NCBI RefSeq assembly: GCF_003270085.1
Contig: NZ_QFDQ01000003.1
Span: 1 to 64,000, forward strand
Source: Streptomyces triticisoli
GTDB taxonomy: Bacteria > Actinomycetota > Actinomycetes > Streptomycetales > Streptomycetaceae
DNA length: 64,000 nt
Direction of reading: 5' to 3'
Shown here: in pieces, positions 55,633-58,673 of the stretch
Numbering within the stretch: the stretch's first letter is position 1
Layout of the letters: every line of letters begins with the position of its first letter
Made by a program: the position numbers and the translations under genes
Notes under the pieces: model-generated
Database searches by the model: none
The model's input: the letters and a program-made list of their open reading frames with translations, nothing else
Told to the model about the DNA's origin: nothing

Positions 55633-55920
55633 ATGACGGACGCCGTGGGCTCCCTCGACACGCCTGATGCCCAGGACGAAGTTGCGGAGTCGAAGAAGAA
55701 GCCCCGCAGGGGCGGCAAGCGCGCCAAGAAGGGCCCGCTGAAGCGCCTCGCGCTCTTCTACCGCCAGATCATCGCGGAACTCCGCAAGGTCGTCTGGCCC
55801 ACTCGCAACCAGCTGACGACGTACACCACCGTGGTGATTATCTTCGTCGTCATCATGATCGGCCTGGTGACCGTGATTGACTATGGGCTCGACCACGCGG
55901 CCAAGTACGTCTTCGGCTGA
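55633..55920 (+). CDS. secE: Preprotein translocase subunit SecE
   Basis: 95 residues: a basic N-terminus ([14 protein letters not shown]), the amphipathic helix [20 protein letters not shown] with the SecE signature, and one C-terminal membrane segment. ATG 55633 after aggtgaggacga. Confidence 0.95.
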
Positions 55921-56000: not shown

Positions 56001-56819
56001 GTGTCTGACCCGAACCTGAACGACGCCATCGAGCCGACCGAGTCCGTGGATGACGAGCTCGACACCGTCGAGGGTGCGGACGAGGTCGACGAGGCCGAGG
56101 CTGACGAGACCGCCGCGGGCGAACCGGCCGAGGAGGCCGCCGTCCGCGTCGAGGACGAGGCACCCGAGGGAGGGGCCGTCGAGGAGGAGCCGGAGGCCGA
56201 GGTGGACCCGGTCACCAAGCTCCGCGAGGAACTGCGCACGCTGCCCGGCGAGTGGTACGTCATCCACACCTACGCCGGCTACGAGAAGCGCGTGAAGGCC
56301 AACCTGGAGCAGCGCGCCGTCTCGCTGAACGTCGAGGACCTCGTCTACCAGGCCGAGGTTCCCGAGGAGGAGATCGTCCAGATCAAGAACGGCGAGCGCA
56401 AGACGGTCCGGCAGAACAAGCTGCCCGGCTACGTGCTCGTCCGGATGGATCTGACGGACCAGTCCTGGGGCGCCGTCCGCCACACCCCGGGCGTCACCGG
56501 CTTCGTGGGGGACGCCTTCAACCCGTACCCGCTGACGCTCGACGAGATCGTGAAGATGCTCGCCCCGGAGGCCGAGGAGAAGGCCGCCCGCGAGGCCGCC
56601 GAGGCCGAGGGCAAGCCGGCCCCGCAGCGCAAGGTCGAGGTCCAGGTGCTGGACTTCGAGGTCGGCGACTCGGTCACCGTCACCGACGGCCCGTTCGCCA
56701 CGCTGCAGGCGACGATCAACGAGATCAACCCCGACTCGAAGAAGGTCAAGGGCCTGGTGGAGATCTTCGGCCGCGAGACGCCGGTCGAGCTCTCCTTCGA
56801 CCAGATCCAGAAGAACTGA
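56001..56819 (+). CDS. nusG: Transcription termination/antitermination factor NusG
   Basis: 272 residues from GTG 56001. An acidic N-terminal extension of about 75 residues (E/D/A-rich) precedes the NGN domain ([20 protein letters not shown]), followed by a linker of about 35 residues rich in A/E and the KOW domain ([20 protein letters not shown]). The extension is standard in actinobacteria. Stops 30 bp before a hairpin. Confidence 0.95.
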
Positions 56820-56849
56820 CCCTGACCACGAGCCGAAGAAGCTGAAGAC

Positions 56850-56880
56850 GCCCCTGCCGGAGGTTTCCGCCAGCAGGGGC
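56850..56880 (+). terminator. Hairpin after nusG
   Basis: gcccctgc (56850-56857) pairs with gcaggggc (56873-56880) with an inner cgg/ccg; marks the end of the secE-nusG transcript. Confidence 0.7.
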
Positions 56881-56888
56881 GTTGTGCG

Positions 56889-56936
56889 TGCGGCTGCGGC
56901 TGCGGCTGCGGCTGCGGCTGCGGCTGCGGCTGCGGT
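56889..56936. repeat. Hexanucleotide microsatellite (TGCGGC)
   Basis: Seven perfect TGCGGC units and a near-perfect eighth, directly after the nusG hairpin. Not in a recognised gene. Confidence 0.95.
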
Positions 56937-56974
56937 GCCTGGGGCCGCTGTGCGTATCGGCAGGGTGCCGGGGA

Positions 56975-57880
56975 TCAGTTGAAGCAGCCGGGGACGGTGG
57001 TGGGGCTGGTGCGGCAGTTGTTCGGGGTGTTGGCGGCGACCACGGTGGTCCGCAGGGTCACGGTGCCCTGGTTGTTGTAGATGCCGCCGGGGTTGTCGTC
57101 GTCGGCGTGGTTGTGGCTGATCCTGCTGAAGGACACCGTGGTGGTGCCGCCGGGGGCGCTGGGTACGCCGTTGGCGATGCCGCCGCCGGTCTGCGCGGTG
57201 TTGTCGGCGATGTTGCTGGCGGTGACGGTCAGTGTCCCGATGTTGGCGATGCCGCCGCCCGCGCCGTCGGCTGTGTTCCTGCTGATCTGCGAGGCTTTGA
57301 CGGTCAGCGTGCCGTCGTTGACGAGACCGCCGCCGTTCCGGGTCGCGGAGTTGCCCCGGACGACGGTTCCGGTCAGGTGGGCCTGAGAACCGTTGAACAC
57401 GCTGATGCCGCCGCCGAAGTCGGCGTGGTTGTCCTTGATCACGCTGCCGGTGACGGTCAGGGTGCCGTTGCCGGTGACGACGATCCCGCCGCCGGCGCCT
57501 GTCACGAGGGGACTGCCGGTGGCGTCGCCGTCGGCGATGACGGCCGATCGCAGCGTCAGGTTGCCGCCGTCGACGGTGAGGATGCGGAACGACCCCGATG
57601 TGCGGGTGAGGGTCGCGCTGTTGCCGTTGATGGTGATCGGCGTGGTGATGGCCGGCAGTTCGGTGGTCAACTGGTACGGGCAGTTGCGTGCCAGGTTGAG
57701 GGTGTTGCTGTCCGGGCTGGCGTTGGCCGTGTCGATGGCATCGCGCAGGGCGGTCTGGCTGCACGCCACGTTCTGGGCTGTGGCCGAGGCGGAGGAGGCC
57801 GGCGCGGTGGAGGCCAGCGTGGCGAGCGTGCTTATGCAGAGGACCTGGGTGGTGCGGACGAAAAACCCACGGGTGAACAT
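56975..57880 (-). CDS. Secreted right-handed beta-helix protein
   Basis: 301 residues. Signal peptide (MFTRGFFVRTTQVLC..., cut near residue 35 after SASA), then a repetitive beta-helix with recurring GGGI and GGGL turns (GAGGGIVVTGNGTLTVTGS, GNSATRNGGGLVNDGTLTVK, GAGGGIANIGTLTVTASNIA). No catalytic pectate-lyase or glycosidase residues stand out; a surface or adhesive role is possible. It lies on the minus strand between nusG and rplK, where most actinobacteria have no gene. Confidence 0.85.
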   Translation of the reverse strand: MFTRGFFVRTTQVLCISTLATLASTAPASSASATAQNVACSQTALRDAIDTANASPDSNTLNLARNCPYQLTTELPAITTPITINGNSATLTRTSGSFRILTVDGGNLTLRSAVIADGDATGSPLVTGAGGGIVVTGNGTLTVTGSVIKDNHADFGGGISVFNGSQAHLTGTVVRGNSATRNGGGLVNDGTLTVKASQISRNTADGAGGGIANIGTLTVTASNIADNTAQTGGGIANGVPSAPGGTTTVSFSRISHNHADDDNPGGIYNNQGTVTLRTTVVAANTPNNCRTSPTTVPGCFN

Positions 57881-58238
57881 GTCGCTCCTTCTGAAATCGC
57901 GCCCGCCGCGGGCGCGCGACGGTTCGGAAGGGCCGTGGGCGCCGCGGGCAGGGGTGCTGTCAGCGAAGGAAATCCCCGTCGAGTCACCTGTTTTCTCCGT
58001 GTGTCGCCTGATTTAAGCCCGATGGTCCTCCGTGATGCGCCCGATGGCCGAATCGGGCCGAGGGGCGCGCGGCCGCACGGGGGATGCCCCCGCGAGCTGC
58101 TTGACCTCGGCGATTTCAGGTCCCGAGGGGGCAGGGGCTATCGTGGTGCGGTATGCCATCTGCGGGATCGTGCATCCGAATAGGGCAGGTCCAAGGCGCG
58201 GATGGTACTCAACCTCTCAGCAAGGACCCGGAGAGAGC
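57881..58238. other. Intergenic region before rplK
   Basis: 358 bp between the start of the beta-helix gene (minus strand) and rplK. It should hold both promoters. No convincing -35/-10 pair with proper spacing was found for rplK; a TTGACC near 58101 and a TATCGT near 58140 are too far apart. No open gene is visible. Confidence 0.5.
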
Positions 58239-58673
58239 ATGCCTCCCAAGAAGAAGAAGGTCACGGGGCTCATCAAGCTCCAGATCCAGGCCGGTGCAGC
58301 CAACCCGGCTCCGCCGGTCGGCCCCGCGCTGGGTCAGCACGGCGTCAACATCATGGAGTTCTGCAAGGCCTACAACGCCGCGACCGAGTCGCAGCGCGGC
58401 TGGGTCATCCCGGTGGAGATCACGGTCTACGAGGACCGTTCCTTCACCTTCGTCACCAAGACTCCGCCGGCCGCCAAGATGATCCTCAAGGCCGCGGGCG
58501 TGGAGAAGGGCTCCGGCGAGCCGCACAAGACCAAGGTCGCCAAGATCACCCAGGCGCAGGTCCGCGAGATCGCCCAGACCAAGCTGCCCGACCTCAACGC
58601 CAACGACCTGGACGCCGCCGAGAAGATCATCGCCGGCACCGCCCGTTCCATGGGCGTCACCGTCGAGGGCTGA
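58239..58673 (+). CDS. rplK: 50S ribosomal protein L11
   Basis: 144 residues from ATG 58239 (ggagaga upstream; the open frame to 58032 is not protein-like). [20 protein letters not shown] start, then [19 protein letters not shown] and the proline-rich linker. Binds the GTPase-centre rRNA, target of thiostrepton, and is needed for RelA activation. rplA follows 99 bp downstream. Confidence 0.96.

Follow-up and report, generated by a model that had tools for sequence, protein, structure and literature searches.

A gene for a putatively secreted beta-helix protein in the nusG–rplK gap of one Streptomyces clade, at a junction that has gained cargo repeatedly

The window analyzed here is a stretch of 64,000 nucleotides from Streptomyces triticisoli, in which an open reading frame of 301 codons lies on the minus strand between nusG and rplK, convergent with the former and divergent from the latter (Table 1). 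The nusG–rplK gap of the window is 1419 bp long; 155 bp separate the end of nusG from the stop of the inner gene, and 358 bp separate the start of the inner gene from rplK. The original prediction had placed a minus-strand gene for a secreted beta-helix protein at this junction, between a microsatellite, here of hexamers, and a 358-bp stretch that leads up to rplK, and the open reading frame, the Pfam assignments of its two neighbors and the coordinates of both flanks agree with it.

Table 1. Features at and around the nusG–rplK junction of the window
Feature	Position	Strand	Description
SecE gene	55633-55920		Pfam
nusG	56001..56819	+	PF02357, E 7.1e-26
Hairpin where nusG and the beta-helix gene converge	56848..56882	.	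16-nt arms, 88% complementary
TGCGGC x7.8 microsatellite	56889..56935	.	Tandem Repeats Finder, 100% matches
Beta-helix gene, product predicted to be secreted	56975..57880	-	301 aa ORF, ATG start; AlphaFold2 model; homologues
Predicted Sec-type signal peptide	57779..57880	-	about residues 1-34, cleavage after SASA; by eye
Divergent intergenic region, beta-helix gene/rplK	57881..58238	.	358 bp; aligns in three species
AAGGAG ribosome-binding site of the beta-helix gene	57885..57890	-	read in sequence
Class B rplK upstream block	58101..58238	+	TATCGT 58139-58144, GGTATGCCATCTG 58150-58162
rplK (L11)	58239..58673	+	PF03946 and PF00298

The gap was also scanned for sequence signals and for repeats. 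The segment 56820-56900 folds with a z of -3.25, equaled in 2 of 200 shuffles, and its hairpin, which was not called by a scan for T-tract terminators, is probably a two-way terminator. No TGCGGC microsatellite was seen in the corresponding gaps of G279, a genome of the genus survey, and of Streptomyces sp. NTH33, the other two carriers of the gene at this site. A sigma-70 promoter scan found none. Two Rfam matches lay far under the gathering scores and were judged to be chance, so that a structured RNA was discarded; a transposon scar was discarded as well, for the direct repeats at 56800-58260 are intragenic or belong to the microsatellite and no pair flanks the beta-helix gene. The GC3 of the gene is 0.934, close to 0.960 in nusG and 0.938 in rplK, and base composition therefore gives no sign of a foreign origin or of recent import. 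Homologues elsewhere in the same genome (6.84 Mb), for which the original prediction had proposed to look, were searched with the protein and with a 22-row profile; at E ≤ 0.01 a single match was returned and no second family member was found.

The AlphaFold2 model of the protein, built on a 22-row alignment with a mean pLDDT of 90.8 and a pTM of 0.86, is a single right-handed beta-helix, in which residues 1-30 form the only long stretch of low confidence. The repeat unit [IVL]xxNx[AP]...GG[GA]?[ILV] occurs in five copies, against a mean of 0.02 and a maximum of 2 in 5000 shuffles. The beta-helix of the original prediction is borne out by the model and by this repeat count, and its GGGI-type turns were found as five GGG[ILV] motifs, together with ten of the form [IV]xxN. 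In a structure comparison, 413 of 513 aligned chains reached Z ≥ 8 with beta-helix entries on top, and the best solved match was rhombotarget A, with 244 residues aligned between 33 and 301 at 2.5 Å, a Z of 24.5 and 19% identity. The protein is predicted, with high confidence, to consist of stacked coils that carry an asparagine ladder and whose GGG[IL] turns are Pmp-like. A sequence search of solved structures gave only 5jh8, annotated ‘Probable chitinase’, at E 0.41, and a profile search gave 7w5z at E 0.0049. In BFVD, the best viral fold match is a Tupanvirus beta-helix protein with 31% identity and a TM of 0.68; this identity is above that of the PDB matches listed. No Pfam model above cut-off and no NCBIfam model was found for the window protein, and a DUF2946 match at E 0.019 was rejected as under the cut-off. 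Family links run via homologues only, one of the 22 matching PF02415 (1.6e-13), one TIGR01376 and one TIGR04212 (1.3e-5).

The N-terminus has a charged start, a hydrophobic core VLCISTLATLAS and an SASA site, as seen by eye and by hydropathy, and the protein would be exported through the Sec pathway. A lipoprotein was considered and rejected, in that the QVLC stretch has no small residue before the cysteine and no lipobox was recognized by eye. Conservation was read from 21 homologues, a set that excludes the decayed row of G279. Among polar, aromatic and cysteine columns, those of at least 80% identity are C40, N53, C67, Y69, R93, R99, N151, N177, N202, N227, N257, N284, N288, C289 and C299, that is, the Asn ladder, four Cys, two Arg and one Tyr. 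The four cysteines would pair in two disulfides, C40-C67 and C289-C299, closing both ends of the helix. Asp, Glu, His and Lys are not conserved at the 80% level in any column of the 21 homologues, which supports the earlier statement that clear enzyme residues are lacking and favors a role in binding or structure over catalysis. The proposed adhesin role is based on the fold and on this lack of conserved acid/base residues; the protein is predicted to act by binding, most likely in adhesion or as part of a matrix, outside the cell or on the hyphal surface.

The catalytic alternative is a pectate-lyase-like polysaccharide lyase, epimerase or hydrolase acting on plant or microbial polymers. Streptomyces secrete many polysaccharide-acting enzymes of the beta-helix class, and several enzymes lie within 1 Z of rhombotarget A, so that the fold is not specific. 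Lyases, epimerases and hydrolases make up many of the fold neighbors. The alginate epimerase/lyase 8ja4 (Z 23.8), the alginate lyase 6kfn (Z 23.6), AlgE4 (2pyh, Z 22.8) and Pel9A (1ru4, Z 21.6) are all no more than 3 below the best Z; with alginate and pectate enzymes so close to rhombotarget A, the fold alone cannot separate a binder from an enzyme, and the weak sequence match to the ‘Probable chitinase’ chain also favors the catalytic side. An enzyme is nevertheless rather unlikely, as conservation at 80% is limited, among charged residues, to R93 and R99, with no D, E, H or K column, and as searches against Pfam and NCBIfam matched no enzyme family. If the protein were an enzyme, the arginines may take part in its action.

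How usual such a filled junction is was read from gap lengths in the 120 of 199 Streptomyces genomes for which the coordinates of both nusG and rplK are listed. The gap is 149-260 bp long in 103 of the 120, while 17, the window included, have enlarged gaps of at least 428 bp: nine of 428-683 bp, five of 1039-1419 bp, among which is the window with its 1419 bp, and three of 2104-6482 bp. The typical nusG–rplK junction is short, and the window is an outlier. The description of this place as one of the most conserved junctions therefore holds for most Streptomyces but not for all of them. The junction gains genes repeatedly, which makes the place less exceptional than the original prediction implied. 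In the titles and abstract beginnings of the papers that literature searches found, this site was not reported.

Homologues of the beta-helix protein were found in at least 74 of 295 genomes of the genus at E ≤ 1e-5 and in at least 18 of 392 at E ≤ 1e-22, the own genome being included in each case; the two genome sets overlap and both counts are lower bounds. Around the 18 closer homologues, stretches of at least 1.5 kb per side were inspected where the contig allows, and nusG and rplK flank the homologue in the window and G279 only, with the proviso that the homologue search may have passed over a copy at the site if its decay is advanced. A third case comes from another genome collection, where the named homologues are Streptomyces and in which Streptomyces sp. 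NTH33 carries the beta-helix gene between nusG and rplK in a gap of 1223 bp. Neither nusG nor rplK was present in stretches of 19-21 kb near the homologues of G029, G282, G318 and S. bungoensis (62-66%). By eye, each of the close homologues has a setting of its own, as would be expected if a single gene moves. In S. bungoensis, two genes of the beta-helix family adjoin each other in convergent orientation (L081 9998-11839). The G282 homologue is located near a run of small secreted proteins that are rodlin- or chaplin-like by eye (L090, G282:C6:328000-347900).

The window species, G279 and NTH33 form one clade with a support of 100/100 in a nusG+rplK tree of 43 rows that includes the full nusG of the window; an earlier tree with a partial nusG of the window gave the same clade at 98/88. 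The beta-helix copies of the three species group at 100/99 in a protein tree of 23 rows, and this group lies within a set that also holds the copies of G282, G029, G318 and S. bungoensis. The simplest account of these trees is one arrival of the gene, which would have taken place in the common ancestor of the three species. The view of the gene as a later insertion is upheld, with short gaps of 149-260 bp in 103 of 120 genomes and the gene found at this site only in the three-species clade. The original prediction had added that a gene present here in nearly all Streptomyces with normal codon use would be an old resident; such a distribution was not found, though the base composition is normal. 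An insertion common to three species is not an event of the newest kind.

A gene selected for its place, for instance by co-regulation with rplK from the common 358-bp region, might be proposed from the divergent arrangement of the pair and from the good alignment of that region in the three species. This proposal is highly improbable, as the gene is missing from the site in most measured genomes and was found there in only 2 of the 392 searched, and as its copies are broken in two of the three carriers while the upstream block of rplK stays.

The copies of G279 and NTH33, the two nearest relatives of the window, are broken. In NTH33, ACG stands in place of the ATG of the window, 42 codons of the N-terminal part are missing in frame and a frameshift occurs near the C-terminus; a 246-codon open reading frame remains from an internal GTG, without the signal peptide. 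In G279, Cys40 is replaced, most of the coils are gone and the C-terminus is shifted; an open reading frame of 197 codons remains. With these reading frames left, some product is possible in both species. The window copy is intact in its frame, start and ribosome-binding site and keeps all four cysteines. The dN/dS is 1.19 between window and NTH33 (bootstrap 0.70-2.64), 1.59 between window and G279 (1.12-2.46) and 1.14 between NTH33 and G279 (0.74-1.98), compared with 0.45-0.75 among copies at other places, against which the window itself gives 0.60-0.84; the window–NTH33 bootstrap reaches the range of the other copies, and the counting method runs high at such GC3. Polarized changes, silent to replacement, number 5 to 20 on the window branch, 3 to 19 on the NTH33 branch and 8 to 39 on both. 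Against six pairs of copies from elsewhere, both branches together give p values of 0.0008 to 0.036, and the window branch alone gives 0.027 to 0.26, with two of the six below 0.05. These figures fit weak selection on the gene in the clade, seen most clearly in NTH33 and G279 by their lesions, and are only suggestive of it for the window’s own copy. The values of dN/dS above 1 could instead reflect faster adaptive change.

The 16 other enlarged gaps of the 120 have unrelated contents. In G192, the gap contains a phosphodiester glycosidase with an SPOR domain; there, the last 18 bases of nusG are exactly repeated 2 bases past its stop, and the repeated end stands ahead of this secreted phosphodiester glycosidase gene (L061, G192:C5:14800-19800). 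Four genomes, G001, G045, G063 and G007 (L064, L065, L066 and L067), carry secreted-looking proteins of one kind, for which no Pfam match was obtained in the one scanned, and in G104 a C-terminal remnant of the same gene is left. Small membrane-type proteins occupy the gaps of six more (G017, G181, G016, G049, G011 and G196); of the three scanned, two match DUF3592 below cut-off and one matches nothing, and the frame in G016 is broken by a stop. No clear gene was recognized in the enlarged gaps of G158 and G080.

Two further gaps contain integrative elements. In G101 (L062, G101:C1:5125500-5135500) and G139 (L063, G139:C32:18200-28200), pSAM2-like elements lie directly behind nusG, alike at 87% in their first 2.95 kb, and a Pfam scan identified RepSA in the former and a tyrosine integrase in the latter; no intact integrase was seen in the list of open reading frames of the G101 element. 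The usual site of pSAM2-like elements is a tRNA gene. Here, a second copy of the nusG end TCCAGAAGAACT follows each element at its far side, with 16 of 18 bases in G101 (14 in a row) and 13 of 18 in G139 (12 in a row), which suggests that the 3' end of nusG is their attachment site. Beyond the repeated nusG end of G101, a further secreted-looking protein is encoded.

These two elements raise the alternative that an actinomycete integrative element, with the 3' end of nusG as its integration site, brought in the beta-helix gene as cargo and was otherwise lost. Besides the elements of G101 and G139 with their repeated nusG ends, homologues on 13 of 72,556 plasmid records could favor it, all from actinobacteria (11 Streptomyces, one Kitasatospora and one Embleya) and all below 60% identity. 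The alternative is unlikely, in view of the lack of a second copy of the nusG 3' end, for which the window gap offers at best 12 of 18 or 10 of 14 bases, not in a row, and the gaps of G279 and NTH33 offer none, and of the lack of an integrase or Rep frame among the open reading frames seen in the window gap. A phage origin is opposed by the search of 50,697 phage records, none of which contains a homologue.

The upstream region of rplK was found to exist in two classes, read from the last 150 bp before the gene, in which class A is defined by GGTATGCCT and class B, to which the window belongs, by GGTATGCCATCTG; two GGTTGCCT variants were counted as class A. Each of the 10 class B loci that were read has an enlarged gap, of 607-6428 bp, and none of the 64 short gaps read is of class B; enlarged gaps also occur at nine loci of class A. 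The association of class with gap size gives a Fisher p of 4e-8, or of 8e-7 with the three-species clade counted once, in a sample for which the large gaps were all fetched and the small ones were sampled. On the nusG+rplK tree, which is built on about 1 kb, class B needs at least 8 changes, and a topology that unites all class B loci in one clade is rejected (p-AU 3.4e-5). With this number of changes, class B and its cargo have either moved between lineages or persisted in some of them after loss from many others. The favored guess is exchange through the conserved flanks. A more specific model, tentative and in our estimate less likely than not, is that the gap acts as a swap slot, in which the class B promoter/leader and a changing cargo would be exchanged as one cassette by homologous recombination, with nusG and rplK as the arms; the cargo would include the beta-helix protein, the DUF3592-like membrane protein and an anchored secreted protein. 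If the exchange of promoter and cargo were real, it would show a way for accessory genes to enter even the most conserved chromosomal region and do no damage there.

In conclusion, the interpretation given in the original prediction is largely right, and the gene is an ordinary accessory gene of known fold. The reading as a whole, that it encodes an accessory, exported, non-catalytic beta-helix binder, inserted once in one clade and weakly selected here, is considered probable. The beta-helix gene is an insertion in the nusG–rplK gap that leaves both neighbors whole. By this account, genes would land in the gap repeatedly and with little harm, because whatever comes to lie between the hairpin behind nusG and the upstream block of rplK interrupts neither of the two. 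By itself, an accessory gene for a secreted protein between two core genes is a modest case. The wider points are that an essential transcription/ribosomal junction gains cargo repeatedly in Streptomyces while its neighbors remain whole, and that the rplK upstream region comes in two kinds, one of which is seen only with cargo or the remains of cargo. Most deserving of further attention are the recurrent filling of the junction and its association with the second class of rplK upstream sequence.

Among known systems, the pSAM2-like elements (AICE) fill the same junction in G101 and G139, from which the window gap differs in that neither an integrase or Rep open reading frame nor a repeat of the nusG end was seen there. 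Rhombotarget A (RbtA), a surface protein of Acinetobacter (PDB 9cdu/9cdv), is a right-handed beta-helix like the window protein. A GlyGly-CTERM sorting tail is a feature of rhombotarget A; this tail is absent in the window protein, whose C-terminus reads VPGCFN with no hydrophobic tail by eye. Its chain of 301 aa also compares with 617 aa for RbtA, as given in an excerpt of PMC12643943, and TIGR04212, the rhombotarget A model, does not match the window protein and matches the one homologue of 22 at 1.3e-5.

The repeat resembles that of the Chlamydia Pmp/POMP proteins (PF02415, TIGR01376) in having a glycine turn and an xxN rung per coil. In Pmp, GGA[ILV] and FxxN are located in the coils of the beta-helix (excerpts of PMC11166332 and PMC10715098), and short repeat motifs have been tied to adhesion (excerpt of PMC2997323). 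Unlike Pmp, the window protein has GGG[IL] and [IV]xxN with no GGA[ILV] and no FxxN, it is without an autotransporter barrel, its chain stopping at 301 just past the helix, and it has no match to PF02415 or TIGR01376, each of which is matched by one of the 22 homologues. Membership in Pmp was therefore rejected on motifs and family models. In the genus itself, a synteny survey of Streptomyces describes, in the part available, one right-handed parallel beta-helix cluster near cysK with no function given (PMC13118837), and its main text mentions neither nusG nor rplK. At the level of annotation, the window protein compares with the right-handed parallel beta-helix proteins of Streptomyces, a family that is widespread in the genus and occurs in at least 74 of the 295 genomes.
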